A DNA stretch of 64,000 nt from Pirellulales bacterium (lineage in GTDB: Bacteria > Planctomycetota > Planctomycetia > Pirellulales > Thermoguttaceae), in assembly GCA_016935315.1 (NCBI GenBank), contig JAFGRD010000075.1, forward strand, positions 1 through 64,000, given 5' to 3'. Position numbers and translations under genes: made by a program. The notes beneath the pieces were generated by a model that ran no database searches, had not been told where the DNA came from, and was given only the letters and a program-made list of their open reading frames with translations. Shown here one piece after another: positions 40,940 to 48,436 of this stretch (positions are counted from its first letter, which is position 1; each line of letters starts with the position of its first letter).

Positions 40940-41662
40940 CTAGGGCAACTCGGCGGTAATCAAGAACACCGGCAGGTGGACCACGCGACCGGCTTCGGCG
41001 CAGGTGCCATCGGCCGCTTCGATCTGCCTCAGCGACCGTTTCTCCGCACCGGTCAGCGGCAGCCCCCGCAACAAGTCGAACCGCGCCGCCGACGGCGATT
41101 GGAGACGCTCCAACAGGTCCACGCGCGTTCGAAACCCGGCGTCGGCCAGCAGACCCGGCAGCTTGCGCCCGATATGCGGATCGGCCCCGGCGCGGCGCAG
41201 CGCCGACAGCCACAGATCGCATGTGGCGATCTCCGGCGGATGTTCGATCATTCCGCCGTAGTCGGGCTCGACGGCCACCAGCACGCCGCCCGGGCAAAGC
41301 ACGCGCCGAATCTCCCCGACCGCCGCCGTCGCGTCCAGCCACATCAGCGCCAATTGGCAGAAAACCAGCTCGAAGACGTCGTCGGCAAACGGCAATCGTG
41401 TCGCGTCGCCACAGATTCGCCATGCGCCAGCCAGCGCCCCGGTGTCTTCGCACAGCGCTTGACGCGCGCGATCCAGCGCGACCACGGTCCCGCTGCCACG
41501 CTGCACCAGCTCGCCGGTGACCGCTCCGCGGCCGCAAGCCAGATCGAGCACGCGCCGGCGCCGAGCGATCCCAACACGGCGCAACAACCGCGCCCGGGCG
41601 GGCGCAAGCCAGCCGGCCTGCTGTTTCAACAACGCCTGCGCCGGCAGGGCCGCTTCGTTCAT
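40940..41662 (-). CDS. Class I SAM-dependent methyltransferase
   Basis: A 240-residue methyltransferase. Motif I is RRVLDLACGRGAVTGELV and the acidic loop after strand 2 is VVALDRARQAL. A GDATRLPFADDVFELVFC stretch carries motifs II and III, and the post-motif is VLCPGGVLVAVEPDYGG. It belongs to the Methyltransf_11/25 type; the substrate is unknown. The ATG at 41662 begins where homology should; a longer frame is open upstream but would include repeat-derived sequence. It is the last gene behind the radical SAM cluster on the same strand, 82 bp after the Cys-Ala-tailed protein. Confidence 0.8.
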   Translation of the reverse strand: MNEAALPAQALLKQQAGWLAPARARLLRRVGIARRRRVLDLACGRGAVTGELVQRGSGTVVALDRARQALCEDTGALAGAWRICGDATRLPFADDVFELVFCQLALMWLDATAAVGEIRRVLCPGGVLVAVEPDYGGMIEHPPEIATCDLWLSALRRAGADPHIGRKLPGLLADAGFRTRVDLLERLQSPSAARFDLLRGLPLTGAEKRSLRQIEAADGTCAEAGRVVHLPVFLITAELP

Positions 41663-41716
41663 CGTTGTGCCTGGAAAACACTGCCAAGGACTCGCAAGAC
41701 GGCAAGCCCTCCCATG

Positions 41717-41748
41717 TGTGCCCAACTTGCTCTTCTGCGAGTCCTTAC
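41717..41748 (-). repeat. Stop-associated short element, copy D
   Basis: In the sense of the Cys-Ala-tailed gene, TAA is followed directly by GGACTCGCAGAAGAGCAAG and then TTGGGCACA. About 26 of 32 positions match copy E at the superoxide reductase gene. Confidence 0.65.
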
Positions 41749-43619
41749 CGGCCGCCGCCGGCACATGCGCACGCGCACGCACACCCTGCGCACGCACAGG
41801 CGCATCCGCCGCCCCCGCCGCCACCTCCGCCTCCGCTGGCGGCCGCTTCGCCGAGGGCCTGGAAGAACTCTCCGGTCACCTTGTCGGCCCCGCTGAGGTT
41901 GAGGAAACCGCCGGCGGGCCTGGCCACGTTCAGCGAGCCGGGCGAAATGGACGTGGCCATGCTGCCCATGGTGTTTTCAGCCCAGCCGGAAAACGACGCC
42001 GCCACGTCGCCGAAGCTCGTCTGGCCGGGGATGCTCGGCGCGCCGCCGCCCGCCGGCACACCTCCGGAGGACGGGGCACCGAGTCCGCGAATCCAGATCG
42101 GCCGGTAGGGCCGCCCATAGTCAAACACCCGGCCGTGGTCTTCCCCCATCAGGATCCACTCGAAGTTGCGGTCGATCGCCTTTTCGCGTTGGGCCAGGTC
42201 ACCGACGGCGCTGGCCTGGTCGCACGCGCGGCGGACGATGCTGCGGTAATAATCCTGGGTGTCGGACAGATCAAACCCTTTCATGCGCGCGGCGGCACGC
42301 TCGATCAACTTTCGCAGCGGCACGCTGAAGTTGATCTGTTGGAGCGGCTTGCCCGGGTTGTGCTGGATCAGATAGAGGAAGCCGTGCTCGTACTTGTGGA
42401 CCACCGTGCCCTTCTTCTGCCCCACGTTGCGGTAGAAGCGGTAGCGATCTGCCACCGTGGCCGAAGGCGTCTCCGTCGGGATCAGGAAATCCTGGTCCAC
42501 TTCGACGATCAGCGGATCAGCCTGTTGCTGGCGGAGCATGCCCTTCTTGAGCATGCCGAAGACGACCAGCCCCAGGACCTTCGCGACAGGCAGCTCGAGC
42601 AGCGCGGCGGCCTCCGGAGCGGTCAGACCTCGCTTGATCCCGCCGCCTTCCACCTGGGCGACCGGCGGCATGTAGTGGACCTTGCGCCGGGCCAGGGACC
42701 ATTCGTTAAAGCCGATCAGCACGAACACCGTCGGCATCGAGAGCAGGTGCAGCCCCGGGCTGAGGTAGAACACGAAGCACGCGACTGCCGAGAGGACGAC
42801 CCACACGGATATTCCGGTTCCCCCGGTAAAACGGAAGAAAAGCAGACCGAACGCTACCAGGAAAACAATCGCGACGGTGACCCGCGCCCCTTTCGATTCG
42901 CGGAACCACTTCAGCAGCAGATCGAGCTTGCTGAGCACGACCACGCGATCGAGGCCGCGTTTGGGGAAGGAGACGGCCACCAGGTGCGGCCCGTCGAGCC
43001 GATCCGCCGGCCAGTCCCAGCCCACCAGCGCGCCGTCGTCCGTGGCGGCCTTGCTGGTGAACTTCAGACCCTGGTGCAGGGCCTCTTCCGGTTTCACGCT
43101 GCGGGGCAACTGAACGGCCACCTGGATGTGCGTGTTGCCCTGGAGGCTGCTGCCGTCGAACCACGTCGGCGTAATCCGCAGCGAGGCCAGCTCGGCGTTG
43201 GTGGTGTCCTGGAAGACCATCTCCGGCATATCGAACTCGACGTGCAGCGTGCCTTCCCGGCCGGGCTGGATGGTGCCGGCGCCCATGGGAATCTCGAAGC
43301 CGCAGTCGATGTAGGTCGAGTGGGCCGCGCCGCCGAGCGGCCGCCCACCGGACGAAGCCTGGATGTTGCCCAGATCGTAGCCCTTGTGCGGCGTGCCGAT
43401 GTCGACCACGTCGATCGCATGGGCGCCGGGGTGGTTGCGGAACGTGATGTCGTAGGCGATATGGACCGAGGCGTCCGGCCGGACGCTGACCAGCATCTGG
43501 AGCTTTGGCACACCGAAACGGTAGTCCTGGGCCGCGGCCGCCCTGCCCGACAGCACGACGCTCCCACCGCAGAGCACGGCCAGCGCGGCCGCGACAAAAA
43601 CCGATTGCAGTTGCTTCAT
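41745..43619 (-). CDS. Membrane protein (DUF2207/TIGR04222-like layout) with a Gly10 and Cys-Ala repeat tail
   Basis: A 624-residue protein. The signal peptide (SVFVAAALAVLCGGSVVLSG) is followed by an extracytoplasmic beta domain (about 25-230), two or three membrane helices (VTVAIVFLVAFGLLFF, VWVVLSAVACFVFYL, LLSMPTVFVLIGF) and a cytoplasmic winged-helix-like part (GLTAPEAAALLELPVAKVL). The tail is exceptional: residues 596-605 are ten glycines, 606-620 hold seven cysteines alternating with alanine around one glycine, and the protein ends GGGR. The layout resembles DUF2207/TIGR04222 proteins, which also end in low-complexity Gly or Gly-Cys tails. It follows the two SPASM genes by 57 bp. The ATG at 43619 has GGAAG ahead. 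Confidence 0.75.
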   Translation of the reverse strand: MKQLQSVFVAAALAVLCGGSVVLSGRAAAAQDYRFGVPKLQMLVSVRPDASVHIAYDITFRNHPGAHAIDVVDIGTPHKGYDLGNIQASSGGRPLGGAAHSTYIDCGFEIPMGAGTIQPGREGTLHVEFDMPEMVFQDTTNAELASLRITPTWFDGSSLQGNTHIQVAVQLPRSVKPEEALHQGLKFTSKAATDDGALVGWDWPADRLDGPHLVAVSFPKRGLDRVVVLSKLDLLLKWFRESKGARVTVAIVFLVAFGLLFFRFTGGTGISVWVVLSAVACFVFYLSPGLHLLSMPTVFVLIGFNEWSLARRKVHYMPPVAQVEGGGIKRGLTAPEAAALLELPVAKVLGLVVFGMLKKGMLRQQQADPLIVEVDQDFLIPTETPSATVADRYRFYRNVGQKKGTVVHKYEHGFLYLIQHNPGKPLQQINFSVPLRKLIERAAARMKGFDLSDTQDYYRSIVRRACDQASAVGDLAQREKAIDRNFEWILMGEDHGRVFDYGRPYRPIWIRGLGAPSSGGVPAGGGAPSIPGQTSFGDVAASFSGWAENTMGSMATSISPGSLNVARPAGGFLNLSGADKVTGEFFQALGEAAASGGGGGGGGGGCACACAGCACACACAGGGR

Positions 43620-43676
43620 GGTTCTTCCCGTTTTGTAGCACTTCAGCCAAAGTCGCCTCTTGTCGGGGCGCATCGA

Positions 43677-45041
43677 TCACTCATCCTCGACTCTCCTCCC
43701 GTCGGCCCAGCCGGCCGGATTGCGGGGACAATCGGCCGCGCAGATGGCCAGCCCCGGACAGTCATCGCAGTGGGTGTCGGACTCGACCCGGCGGCGATAC
43801 CGGCAAAACACCTCGCTGTTGCGGATCGTCTCCCAGGCATCCTTCAGCAGGTTGCCCGCGGAGACGTGCGGTCCGCGGGCGGGAATTACCGAGCCGTCGG
43901 GCTCGACGCGGACGGCGTGGTCGCCGCCTGCGCGAGGCCCGCGGCGGACATGAGCCGCCAGCGAGCTGCCCAGGTGGAACCGCACCGGCGGATACCAGAG
44001 GTAACGCACGCTGGACTCTTCGGCCGACTCTTCGACGAGCCGGGCGGCCTCGATCAACTCGTCGGCCCGCAAGGCGCCGCCGGTCGACTTGCCCTCGGTC
44101 ATGGCTACCGCGTAGAACGCGGCGTTGCCGACGCCTCGCGACGCCAGCGACTGGAGCGTCTCTTCGATGCCCTCCAGGGTGCTTTCCACCAGGGCCACCT
44201 CGGCCACGGGACAGACCTCGTTTTCGCCCAGTTCGACCATGGCCCGCGTCGCCTGCTCGTGATCGCCGCTTCCGGCCAGGGCGTCGTGGACTTCCGGCTG
44301 CGCGGAAAGGTATGTCAGGTCGACGTGATCGACGCCGGCCCGGGCCAGATCGCGAAGGAGCGTTCCCGCCGCCAGGACACTGCCCTGGCCGCGAACGCCG
44401 GCGATCAACCCCAGGTCTTCCGCCCGCTCGACCGCCCGCACCAACGCGGCGGCGTCCGGGTCTTCGCCGGCGACCAGCGTCACGTGCGGGATACCCAGCT
44501 CCCAGAGCCGGTCGAGGATCGGCACCAGCAGCTCCGGCTCGGCCAGCGGCAGGTCGGCCGACAGCGGCCGGTCCAGCGGGGCCAACTCCGGTGAGAAGGC
44601 GGGGTCGGCTAGGTTGAGGATCGGGTAGTTGTCGCCCGGGCTGGTCAACTCGGTGAGGATCCGGTCGAGGCGGTCCACGTCGGCGGCGGCCTGGGCGGGC
44701 GTCACGCCGCGGAAACTCCGCACCAGGCGGTCGGCGATTACCGCAGGCCGCTCGCCTTCCAGCAGCCCCTTGGCGATGATCACGCCCGAGGCCCGCAGGT
44801 GCGTCGCGGCCGAAGCATTGGCCAACAGCACGCCGCCGGTCGAATCGACCCGAAGGTGGAACCGCGTAAAGGTCCCATTTGCCTCGCGCAGATAGTGGTA
44901 CAAGCCGGGTTTGACGCCGGCCTTCTCCAGCGGCAAAAGCGTCCGCGGCCGCAAGGCGTTGATAAGTTGCCGAAAACTCATCGGCTCCCGCGACACTCGG
45001 GGGCCTAATATCGCCGCCTTCATCAGTTGCCTGAGGTCCAT
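43677..45041 (-). CDS. SPASM-domain protein related to radical SAM maturases but lacking the CxxxCxxC cluster motif
   Basis: A 454-residue paralogue of the upstream enzyme. Residues about 30-130 resemble its PqqD-like N-domain (FHLRVDSTGGVLLANASAAT, LVRSFRGVTP). Where the radical SAM CxxxCxxC should be, the strand reads YPILNLADPAFSPELAPLD without any cysteine. The barrel pattern continues (PHVTLVAGEDPDAAALVRAV). A C-terminal SPASM cysteine set remains (YRRRVESDTHCDDCPGLAIC, AADCP). It probably cannot bind the catalytic 4Fe-4S cluster and may be a regulatory or substrate-binding partner. It starts 6 bp after the active paralogue. Confidence 0.75.
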   Translation of the reverse strand: MDLRQLMKAAILGPRVSREPMSFRQLINALRPRTLLPLEKAGVKPGLYHYLREANGTFTRFHLRVDSTGGVLLANASAATHLRASGVIIAKGLLEGERPAVIADRLVRSFRGVTPAQAAADVDRLDRILTELTSPGDNYPILNLADPAFSPELAPLDRPLSADLPLAEPELLVPILDRLWELGIPHVTLVAGEDPDAAALVRAVERAEDLGLIAGVRGQGSVLAAGTLLRDLARAGVDHVDLTYLSAQPEVHDALAGSGDHEQATRAMVELGENEVCPVAEVALVESTLEGIEETLQSLASRGVGNAAFYAVAMTEGKSTGGALRADELIEAARLVEESAEESSVRYLWYPPVRFHLGSSLAAHVRRGPRAGGDHAVRVEPDGSVIPARGPHVSAGNLLKDAWETIRNSEVFCRYRRRVESDTHCDDCPGLAICAADCPRNPAGWADGRRVEDE

Positions 45042-45047
45042 CGGAGG

Positions 45048-46580
45048 TCACCACCCTTCTTGTGCTGTGAGCAAGGGGTCGTCGGCCGTCGCTTCCGGGC
45101 GTTCGGCCATCAGCTTGGGGCTGTCGGCCGGAGAAAACGGCGCCGCCTCGTTCTCGCGACCATGAATCCCGCAGTTTGCGTGCTCCCTCTCGATCCGGCA
45201 TCCGCCGGCGCAAAGCGGCAAATCGGGGCATTGCCAACACGCCTCGGGCAGCCCGCAGCCGCGCGGATCGGCTACCCGGTGGCGAAAACTCCGGAACAGA
45301 TCGCTGCGCCAGATCGTCGCCCACCGATCGCGAAGGATATTGCCCGCGGCCGAGTAATACGATTGACACGGCAACACGTCGCCGTTGGGTTCGATGCACA
45401 CGGAGTATTCGGCCGCGTTGCAGCGCCGGGGGCCGAGTTCCAGCTCGACCGGCGAGAGCCGACAGTAGGCGGTGGGCGTGTACCAGAGAAATCGCATTCC
45501 CAGCTCGGCCGCTCGATCGCGGACGGCGACCAGCACGGCGGCCATGTCGGCCTCGGCCAGCGCCTCGCGGCTGGTGCGCCCGCCGCCCGAGTAGATCATG
45601 CCGTTGAAGGCGAAGGTGCGCAGCCCCTGGGCGTGTAGGAACTCGACGATCTGCTCTGCGTGGCCGGCGTTTTGCCGCGTCAGCGTGGTGTTGGTGATCG
45701 TGTGCAGCCCGGCGGCCAGCGAGTTCTCGATGCCGCCGGTCGTCTCCAAGAACGAATCGGCCGCGGTCATGGCATTGTGCACCTCGGGCCGGTGCGATCC
45801 GAGCGTGATCTGCACGTGGTTCAGCCCGGCCCGGGCGAGCGACTCGACAAACGGCCTGTCCGCGAGCCGCCGGCCGTTGGTGTTCAGGCCGGCGACCAGG
45901 CCGAGCCGCCGGGCGCGGTCGATCAGCCGCGTCAGGTCGTCGAACAACGTCGGCTCGCCCCCGGTGAAGATCACGTGAGGCACACCCACCCGGGCGAGCT
46001 TCCCCAAAACGCGATTCCAATCCCGCGGCGAGAGCGACCGCATGGCTGCCCGCTGGGGCTGGTTGTAGCAATGTGGGCAGGCGTTGTTGCAGCCGTAGGT
46101 CAGTGCCAGGTCGGCCTTGTAGGGTGCACGAACGGGCGTGCTGAACAGGGGCGTTCTGGCCAGTTCGTCCCGCCCACAGGTCGAACACGCGGCGGTCGTA
46201 GTCGCCAGATGTTCGACCAGCGCGTAGATCCGTGCGGACTGACGGCGAAGCAGCGCGGGCTCGACGCCGCGGAAGTGGGCCCGCAATACGACCGCGGCCC
46301 GATCCGCCGGCACCTTCTCCAGGGCCAGGCGGGCCATCAACGCGGCGGTCGGGTTTAGGTGGATCGCATCCGTCACGTCGACCAGCAGCACGCCTGAACC
46401 ATCGGATTCGATCCGCAGATGGATTCGTCGTCGGCCGCCGGGAGGGTACACGTCGTAGGCGAACAGGCCGGGCCGCACCGGCAACAGCCTGCCGGCGGCG
46501 GCCCGCCATCCAAGCCAGTCACGCCGCAAGGCGTCGAGCAGACGTCGGGCGATGCGGCCGGTCCGGCCAGTCGTCACCAT
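45048..46580 (-). CDS. Radical SAM/SPASM enzyme with PqqD-like N-terminal domain
   Basis: A 510-residue enzyme. Residues about 30-125 look like a PqqD/RRE-type peptide-binding domain (GVLLVDVTDAIHLNPTAALM, VVLRAHFRGVEP). Radical SAM motif: Cys164, Cys168 and Cys171 in YGCNNACPHCY, followed by the SAM-binding GGE in VIFTGGEPTLFDD. The SPASM/twitch auxiliary-cluster cysteines are CNAAEYSVC, VLPCQSYYS, CGLPEACWQCPDLPLC and AGGC. Relatives modify peptides or proteins. The start at 46580 follows GGAGG and overlaps the zinc-ribbon gene by 7 nt, so translation is coupled. Confidence 0.88.
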   Translation of the reverse strand: MVTTGRTGRIARRLLDALRRDWLGWRAAAGRLLPVRPGLFAYDVYPPGGRRRIHLRIESDGSGVLLVDVTDAIHLNPTAALMARLALEKVPADRAAVVLRAHFRGVEPALLRRQSARIYALVEHLATTTAACSTCGRDELARTPLFSTPVRAPYKADLALTYGCNNACPHCYNQPQRAAMRSLSPRDWNRVLGKLARVGVPHVIFTGGEPTLFDDLTRLIDRARRLGLVAGLNTNGRRLADRPFVESLARAGLNHVQITLGSHRPEVHNAMTAADSFLETTGGIENSLAAGLHTITNTTLTRQNAGHAEQIVEFLHAQGLRTFAFNGMIYSGGGRTSREALAEADMAAVLVAVRDRAAELGMRFLWYTPTAYCRLSPVELELGPRRCNAAEYSVCIEPNGDVLPCQSYYSAAGNILRDRWATIWRSDLFRSFRHRVADPRGCGLPEACWQCPDLPLCAGGCRIEREHANCGIHGRENEAAPFSPADSPKLMAERPEATADDPLLTAQEGW

Positions 46581-46915
46581 TTCGGCTCCTCCTCGATCTG
46601 GTAGGCGGCGCCGCAGAACTCGCACTGCACGAACACGGCGCCGGCTTTGACGACGATCGATTGCTTGCTGAGGCTTCCGCCGCAAGCCCGGCAGGTCATA
46701 TCCTGAAGATTCACGTCGCCGGAGAGATCGATCTTCTGCACCACGGTAGTGATCGACTCCTTGGGCTTCTGCATGGCCAACCAGACCAGGGCCCCGGCCG
46801 CGGCCATCAGCACCACGCCGACCACCACCCGCACGATCTGGCCCTGGGCCCCCACGACGAACAGCAGCCCCAGCAGCCCCAGCAGTGCAGCCAGCGGATA
46901 AGCAATCAATTTCAT
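46574..46915 (-). CDS. Small membrane protein with zinc ribbon
   Basis: A 113-residue protein with two membrane helices at residues about 4-45 (AYPLAALLGLLGLLFVVGA, VVVGVVLMAAAGALVWLAM), then a cytoplasmic linker and a zinc-ribbon pair (CRACGG and CEFCGAAYQIEEEPKW). It is the first gene of the radical SAM cluster and overlaps the next gene by 7 nt. It may recruit the maturase to the membrane, where the Cys-Ala-tailed protein resides; this is inference. Confidence 0.7.
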   Translation of the reverse strand: MKLIAYPLAALLGLLGLLFVVGAQGQIVRVVVGVVLMAAAGALVWLAMQKPKESITTVVQKIDLSGDVNLQDMTCRACGGSLSKQSIVVKAGAVFVQCEFCGAAYQIEEEPKW

Positions 46916-47014: not shown

Positions 47015-48085
47015 TCAGTACTGCCGCAGGAGATCGAGCATCTTGCGGTCGAGCCGGTGGCCGTGGAGGTCTTCGTACGGGACGTCGTTGCGGCCGCTGT
47101 CGACCACGCCGAAGGAACCGCGCAGGTTCCAGAGGGCCCAGCCCCAGCCGGCCTCTTGCCACAGCTCGAGGAAGTCGCGCATCCACCGCAACGCCACGGC
47201 GTGGGGCGTCCGGTTGAAGCACCCCCATTCGCCCACGTGGACACCGACGCCGCGCTGGGCCAGCTTCTTCCACGGCAGGATCTTGTTCTGGTAGAGCCAG
47301 TCGCGGTCGATCACCCGCTCGCCCTGCTTCAGCGGCCAGGTCGGCTCGGGCCAACGCTGGCCATTGACCCAGGACGCCTGGTAGTGGCTCAGCTCCATGG
47401 GGTCGTAACCCCGGGTGCTCTGGGCAATGCCCAGATCGGCCAGTTCCAACAGCGGCTCGCGCCCCCATTGCAGCCCGTCGGATACGACCAGCCGCTGGGG
47501 ATCGACCTCGCGGATGGCCGCAACCACGCGGCGGGCAACCTTGGCGTAGTCATCCGGATCAATCCGCGCCGGCTCGTTGACCAGATCGAAGCTGACCTGC
47601 GTGGACGGGATGCCCTGGTATCGCTTGGCGAATTGAGACCACTGGAAGTCGAACTGCTTCTGGGCCTCCTCGTCGGTCCAGAGATTGAGCTTCTCCGGCG
47701 GCGAGGCCACCGTATAGCCCGGTGCCCGATGCAGGTTCAGATCGACGTGGATCCCGTGCTTGCGACCGAACGCGACCGCCTGGTCGATCTCTTTGAGCAC
47801 CTTCTCGTCGAGCCTGTAGGGGTCGTCCGAGTCGGTCCAGCAACGGTAGTCCATCGGCAGCCGCACGAAGTCGAATCCCCACTCGGCCATCCAGGCAAAG
47901 TCGGATTCGACGAACGGCTGGTTGCGTCCGGCGTTGAACTTTTCCAGCAGGTTGAATCCACGCCATCGCGGCAGCTTGCGAGCAAGCTGGGCCGCATCCG
48001 GTTGCGGGGCGGCGTGGGCCGACGGTCCGACAAGCGCCGCGGCCGTGCCGGTGGCTGCCGCTTTGAGGAAATCGCGTCGTCTCAT
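47015..48085 (-). CDS. Tat-exported GH5 glycoside hydrolase (cellulase-type)
   Basis: A 356-residue family-5 glycosidase. The leader MRRRDFLKAAATGTAAALVG is Tat-type. GH5 landmarks are WRGFNLLEKF, WGFDFVRLPMDYRCW, the acid/base Glu in VSFDLVNEPAR and the nucleophile Glu in GVHVGEWGCFN. The barrel ends with WALWNLRGSFGVVDSG. Substrate specificity among beta-1,4-glucans, mannans and others cannot be told. The ATG at 48085 follows GAGAGA. It lies about 100 bp upstream of the radical SAM cluster on the same strand and may share its transcript. Confidence 0.88.
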   Translation of the reverse strand: MRRRDFLKAAATGTAAALVGPSAHAAPQPDAAQLARKLPRWRGFNLLEKFNAGRNQPFVESDFAWMAEWGFDFVRLPMDYRCWTDSDDPYRLDEKVLKEIDQAVAFGRKHGIHVDLNLHRAPGYTVASPPEKLNLWTDEEAQKQFDFQWSQFAKRYQGIPSTQVSFDLVNEPARIDPDDYAKVARRVVAAIREVDPQRLVVSDGLQWGREPLLELADLGIAQSTRGYDPMELSHYQASWVNGQRWPEPTWPLKQGERVIDRDWLYQNKILPWKKLAQRGVGVHVGEWGCFNRTPHAVALRWMRDFLELWQEAGWGWALWNLRGSFGVVDSGRNDVPYEDLHGHRLDRKMLDLLRQY

Positions 48086-48436
48086 GGGTCTCTCGATGGG
48101 GCAAGGAGTTAAAGGGATATTCGCCCCGGCTTCAGGCGCATTGGCCGCTTGCCGGCGGGGCGCCACCCATCATGCGCCATCCGGACGCCGGTGGCAATGA
48201 TCCCGGTCAGTGGCCCGGGCCCGCCGAAGCCATGGGATTCCGAAGCCGCTTGGATCGGCGCAACTTGTTTCTGAGAAATGCCTTGCGAAGCTGCTGGTTG
48301 GCCGGGGCCGATGCGTAACAGACGAAACTTCACGATGTTTTCCGCGATTCATGCACGCTCGGACGGACAAATTGCCACTATTGTCTTTGGAAGGGCTCCG
48401 TTTCCGACTCTCCCAAACCGAAAGACCGGTGTTGCC
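48086..48436. other. Divergent intergenic region
   Basis: About 350 bp between divergent genes. No repeat, RNA or good promoter pair was recognised. Confidence 0.4.

Follow-up and report, generated by a model that had tools for sequence, protein, structure and literature searches.

Membrane proteins with cysteine-containing C-terminal tails have already been proposed as targets of peptide-modifying enzymes. TIGR04222 membrane proteins, whose Ser/Gly-rich tails contain Cys, are proposed substrates of MNIO enzymes, and Pirellula staleyi provides a planctomycete example of such systems (PMC12452194). Radical SAM (rSAM) enzymes of TvgB/TvgA and other systems act repeatedly on a repeated short core motif, and Asp-Cys repeats of unknown fate are listed as well (PMC9062424). 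Moreover, an rSAM enzyme may modify a protein subunit that functions in place: QhpD installs several Cys thioethers in QhpC, a subunit of quinohemoprotein amine dehydrogenase (PMC7876137). Cys-tailed membrane proteins have thus been proposed as substrates before, and repeated-motif and protein-subunit substrates of rSAM enzymes are known. What appears to be unusual in the locus analysed here is the class of substrate, together with the existence of two repeat types, each matched to its own enzymes. We consider it likely that the locus is a dedicated cassette for post-translational modification that acts on a full-length, membrane-anchored protein, with the Cys-repeat C-terminus as its substrate. 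Literature searches on this system, on DUF2207 or Thermanaerothrix together with radical SAM, on ACGX and on the tail strings returned no description of it; the matches to the tail strings were apparently DNA letters in unrelated papers.

Within the window, by which we mean the whole 64,000-nucleotide stretch of Pirellulales DNA that was analysed, the cassette consists of five genes, all on the minus strand. As an earlier note on this DNA had described, neighbours are spaced, in gene order, by a 7-nt overlap and then by gaps of 6, 57 and 82 bp, and the reading frames are open, without internal stops. The first gene (46574..46915) encodes ZnR, a 113-aa membrane protein with N-terminal TM segments and a C-terminal double CxxC, which has homologues in both Planctomycetota and Chloroflexota and a nearly invariant C-terminal PKW. 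It is followed by a 510-aa rSAM/SPASM protein (45048..46580), its 454-aa paralogue (43677..45041), the 624-aa tail protein (41745..43619) and a 240-aa class I methyltransferase (40940..41662; PF08241, 64.1 bits), the last also lying next to the other genes in most homologous clusters. The gene order is shared by planctomycetes of the same family. In Anaerolineae the arrangement is compact and reads ZnR, tail protein, rSAM, paralogue, methyltransferase; the isolates Thermanaerothrix daxensis and Pelolinea submarina were among the carriers found by a protein-based scan of named genomes. Outside the cassette, a cellulase-like gene (47015-48166) adjoins ZnR, and a counterpart with 66% identity adjoins ZnR in genome G053 (L073:1210-2313), possibly making it a conserved neighbour. 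In three Anaerolineaceae, the cassette lies beside an apparent NAD-dependent DNA ligase gene (L059:5607-7667, L060:390-2411 and L062:5648-7702), which suggests that it occupies a stable position on the chromosome and is inherited vertically.

The tail protein ends in ten glycines (residues 596-605; 41805..41834) followed by the tail proper, CACACAGCACACACAGGGR (residues 606-624; 41748..41804), in which seven Cys alternate with Ala before a terminal GGGR and the stop codon. The earlier note had read this end correctly; it is the sole run of at least three consecutive CA dipeptides in the six frames of the window, and CACAGGGR followed by a stop matches once in the whole 7.1-Mb genome. Upstream of the tail are a signal peptide, a β-rich extracytoplasmic domain, three predicted TM helices and a cytosolic domain. 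The AlphaFold2 model, of limited quality (mean pLDDT about 72, pTM 0.44), places the β-rich domain at residues 34-225 and the TM helices at 243-311, followed by a helical domain and a disordered end. By hydropathy, the Chloroflexota homologues have a single TM segment. Since the number of TM helices after the signal peptide is odd in both cases, the tail is predicted to be located in the cytosol. The cytosolic domain is conserved between the phyla, with E324, G325, G327 and K329-T333 invariant. In several genomes the tail protein is duplicated in tandem, each copy having its own full CA tail (L057:5241-9246, L177:6523-10293 and L178:6193-10053).

The family assignment of the tail protein is less straightforward. 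No Pfam or NCBIfam model matched the protein of the window, including TIGR04222 (cut-off 43 bits; the best of 18 homologues reached an E-value of 0.008 and a relative with the second tail type, described below, 37.4 bits) and DUF2207 (PF09972/PF20990). Assignment to either family was therefore rejected, and the label "DUF2207/TIGR04222-like" used in the earlier note is valid only by way of distant relatives such as the protein at locus L197, which scores 29.1 against the DUF2207 cut-off of 24.4. Foldseek was uninformative, the best matches being β-sandwich regions of M1 aminopeptidases and oligosaccharyltransferase subunits with TM-scores of about 0.2. Anaerobic sulfatases are modified at a CxPxR/CxAxR motif; the CAGGGR end of the tail does not fit it.

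The enzyme next to ZnR is, as anticipated, an intact rSAM/SPASM protein, predicted to be a peptide maturase. It has the cluster motif CNNACPHC (residues 164-171; 46068..46091), a radical SAM domain (PF04055, 86.5 bits) and a full SPASM domain (PF13186, 41.6 bits against a cut-off of 21.5), and its cluster cysteines are invariant in an alignment of 20 homologues. Its N-terminal region is putatively PqqD-like, with a score of 13.0 that is below the Pfam cut-off of 23.4, whereas a sister rSAM of the second type reaches 31.4. The top NCBIfam match is TIGR04347, the degenerate pseudo-SAM/SPASM homologue of Halobacteria, with a score (105.6 bits) far below the cut-off of 525; the match to TIGR04340, the ACGX system model, is likewise below threshold (60.3 bits against 400). 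None of the five genes matched MNIO models. The second SPASM protein has a different character. CxxxCxxC is absent in every homologue, the PF04055 match is below the cut-off, and the Chloroflexota proteins also lack the C-terminal Cys cluster; we therefore regard it as a pseudo-rSAM. Its AlphaFold2 model (pLDDT 75.6) comprises a barrel and a PqqD/RRE-like winged-helix domain of β-strands followed by three helices (residues 46-133; 44643..44906), and the best PDB matches, with TM-scores of about 0.5, are the RRE-carrying SkfB and SuiB. SkfB, SuiB and CteB, RRE-rSAM-SPASM/Twitch peptide maturases, have the same three-domain layout as this model, but they are active enzymes working on short precursors, whereas the paralogue here is degenerate.

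The tail and the rSAM are genetically inseparable. Among 99 relatives, the genomes with the tail protein, with the pseudo-rSAM and with the rSAM (>600 bits) are an identical set of 12; the joint occurrence of the tailed protein and the SPASM pair, which the earlier note had made a test of its proposal, is thus complete. Between planctomycetes and Chloroflexota, the identity is 0.82 in the tail and 0.17-0.33 in segments of the body. A DNA pattern for the last eight residues alone (CACAGGGR plus stop) was detected in 28 of 400 Chloroflexota and 2 of 392 Planctomycetota genomes; the reversed pattern was detected in 0 and 1, respectively, which for Chloroflexota places the tail far above chance. 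At all 27 Chloroflexota tail loci that were fetched, an rSAM with an intact CxxxCxxC is adjacent; the pseudo-rSAM and ZnR are each present at 26 and the methyltransferase at 23. The 28th genome is that of T. daxensis, where the rSAM also lies beside the tail (L059), and the second planctomycete, G783, from another family, has the rSAM, tail and methyltransferase.

Profile searches against 249 Anaerolineae led to the same picture. The tail-protein profile gave 30 strong matches, every one ending in a CA tail, and all 30 genomes reappear among the 34 that the rSAM profile picked out with 583-695 bits. The remaining four showed no tail. In three of them the rSAM sits at a contig edge; the fourth, G892, is a clear exception, with several kb on each side of the rSAM and the tail absent, although this draft MAG may lack it. 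In G1035, G969, G1086 and G923 (second copy) the rSAM and the tail are on separate contigs, and close linkage is therefore unnecessary for their co-occurrence. Fisher values for the association (1e-15 and 1e-34) are only indicative and overstate it, because they ignore phylogeny and the genomes are not phylogenetically independent; most of the genomes are MAGs. Six genomes drawn from Anaerolineae (G1036, G1077, G977, G1012, G1048 and G931; loci L177, L178, L179, L181, L182 and L183) have planctomycete-type clusters in gene order and tail type, with an rSAM falling within the planctomycete clade, which suggests either whole-cassette transfer between phyla or MAG contamination. A further locus, L194:990-4409 (G923:C353), encodes a protein of the Ser/Thr kinase-AAA type with a C-terminal stretch of ~140 residues that is similar to the tail region of the Chloroflexota proteins and likewise finishes in the CA tail. 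An rSAM and a methyltransferase of its own lie downstream, while ZnR and the membrane body were not found at this locus. The tail-proximal sequences differ from those of the second tail gene of the same genome (G923:C52), so a chimera with that gene is rejected; a tail-domain fusion is possible, as is misassembly or a foreign chimera in this single MAG contig.

A further key finding is a sister system. Five weak body matches in the search of 249 Anaerolineae end in a different tail, a (Cys-His-Ser-Ala)n repeat (type II, as opposed to the type I CA tail), and wherever the contig continues, a homologous rSAM with CxxxCxFC lies downstream. In the rSAM profile search, the scores form a second group at about 267-338 bits. 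Twenty-four loci of this group were then fetched, chosen by the rSAM alone; four are cut by a contig end, and at all 20 testable ones a CHSAC-repeat tail protein is encoded directly upstream. At most of these, a two-CxxC membrane protein lies downstream. The type II arrangement is also present in G066, a planctomycete of the window's order (L264), whose protein (L264:9679-11589) is a pure (CHSA)n array at its end, closing with CVSGGAH. A search for CHSACHSAC retrieved two genomes, with an rSAM adjoining in both, and G114 has both tail types. The L197 (6086-10992 and 11030-12940) and L199 loci encode, besides a two-CxxC membrane protein, a conserved coiled-coil-like protein of ~387 aa and a true DUF2207 protein whose long Gly tail is free of Cys. 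In a tree of 98 family rSAMs and one outgroup, the type II enzymes all fall within a single clade (SH-aLRT 99) and the type I enzymes all within another (96); within type I, the (CA)nG(CA)4 tails group in one clade of 20 (99), L183 being the single exception. Immediately ahead of the third cluster Cys, 54/54 type I rows have His and 27/27 type II rows have Phe (CxxxCxHC versus CxxxCxFC). Tail type thus matches rSAM clade, and this co-variation is the strongest argument that the enzyme recognises the tail. Because the tail and the rSAM co-occur in two phyla and sister tails pair with sister rSAMs, the tail is very probably the substrate of its partner rSAM, in agreement with what the earlier note had proposed for the full-length protein. 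One point needs amending, however: since the second SPASM protein is catalytically degenerate and some lineages do without it, the core consists of the tail and the rSAM, usually accompanied by ZnR and the methyltransferase.

Could the tail owe its existence to something other than modification? Slippage in GC-rich TGCGCC repeats beside a chance rSAM neighbour might be suspected, as the tail changes length only by whole CA units, with (CA)2-5 ahead of the central Gly (once Ala) and (CA)3-4 behind it. Yet when 72 distinct tail DNAs were compared pairwise over their last ten codons (CACACAGGGR), all 14,799 codon differences proved synonymous and none changed an amino acid. The pattern used to collect this set required GGGR and the Cys positions but placed no constraint on the Ala positions; each of the six Arg codons and of the three stops occurs, while the GGGR end remains exact. 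Together with conservation across two phyla and the reversed-pattern control, these data rule out a low-complexity artefact, to which we assign practically no weight. A more serious alternative, though still an improbable one, is that the tail is unmodified and serves as a metal- or Fe-S-binding, redox or assembly motif, the rSAM acting on another partner in the same pathway, such as ZnR, the product of the methyltransferase or a small molecule. CxC-type repeats are plausible metal ligands, the two-CxxC ZnR accompanies nearly all clusters of both types, and a conserved Cys tail might show equal conservation without being modified. This scenario fits less well with the type I tail and rSAM persisting without ZnR or the pseudo-rSAM nearby (L194, L201/L141 and L202/L142), with the repeat type tracking both the rSAM clade and the cluster-motif residue, and with the RRE/PqqD-like domains, which imply a peptide substrate.

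The tail might also be modified and then cut off the membrane protein to be released as a small peptide, that is, as a leader-less RiPP. A Gly-rich linker does precede the core, and the tandem tail genes could raise the peptide yield. We nevertheless find this version even harder to credit than an unmodified tail. Classical RiPP systems have a short, leader-bearing precursor and a protease or exporter, whereas here the precursor would be a 624-aa membrane protein and no protease or peptide exporter recurs in the clusters; moreover, the cytosolic domain is itself conserved between phyla, and the tail is predicted to be cytosolic. The retained membrane body and the missing protease or exporter favour use in place.

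Our preferred reading, modification of a tail that stays on its protein, has parallels in the described systems but coincides with none of them. In TIGR04222/MNIO systems, too, the C-terminal low-complexity Cys region of a membrane protein is the proposed substrate of a neighbouring enzyme. That enzyme, however, is an MNIO with PME-type 2 partners rather than an rSAM/SPASM protein, and the tails are predicted to be periplasmic and have no fixed repeat. TIGR04117, the "Cys-Xaa-Xaa-Xaa repeat radical SAM target protein", has Cys at every fourth residue, as do the (CHSA)n tails, and the G066 tail matches it weakly (20.6 bits, below the cut-off of 50). That model covers 98 positions, whereas here the repeat ends a membrane protein of ~600 aa, and in type I Cys occupies every second residue. 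Substrates of the TvgA type are peptide precursors in which a TVGG motif is converted to cyclopropylglycine, and not full-length membrane proteins. QhpC carries a leader of 28 residues, which is cleaved off, and its acceptors are Asp/Glu, whereas the CA tail offers only Ala and Gly.

We envisage that the tail protein inserts with the β domain outside, leaving the tail in the cytosol alongside the enzymes. The PqqD/RRE-like domains of the rSAM, and of the pseudo-rSAM where present, would bind the substrate by its cytosolic part, probably through the ~140 residues that precede the tail; the pseudo-rSAM would then probably be a substrate-holding partner. The rSAM with its SPASM clusters could act repeatedly along the Cys-Ala or Cys-His-Ser-Ala units, and the methyltransferase would add a further group, perhaps to the tail. 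The RRE-rSAM-SPASM layout, the Cys-rich repeats and the presence of only Ala and Gly neighbours in type I make bonds from Cys sulfur to carbon the most plausible chemistry, although we assign thioethers to Ala or Gly only tentatively. The product would be a stiff, multiply bridged or metal-binding tail kept on the membrane protein and used in place, neither cleaved nor exported.

Maturases of the rSAM/SPASM type have mostly been studied on short, trimmed and exported peptides, while the matched family described here points to full-length membrane-protein substrates. The family includes two tail chemistries and cultured hosts, its tails are short, invariant and repeated, and through it DUF2207-like proteins of unknown function gain a biochemical handle. 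More speculatively still, DUF2207-like membrane proteins may carry at their cytosolic ends an enzyme-built tail that is a protein-bound poly-thioether or a poly-Cys cofactor. It would come in two repeat chemistries, Cys-Ala and Cys-His-Ser-Ala, produced by the two sister rSAM clades, and could be moved to other proteins, a Ser/Thr kinase for example. Across Chloroflexota and Planctomycetota, such a tail would represent an unrecognised kind of peptide cofactor or sensor element that works in place.
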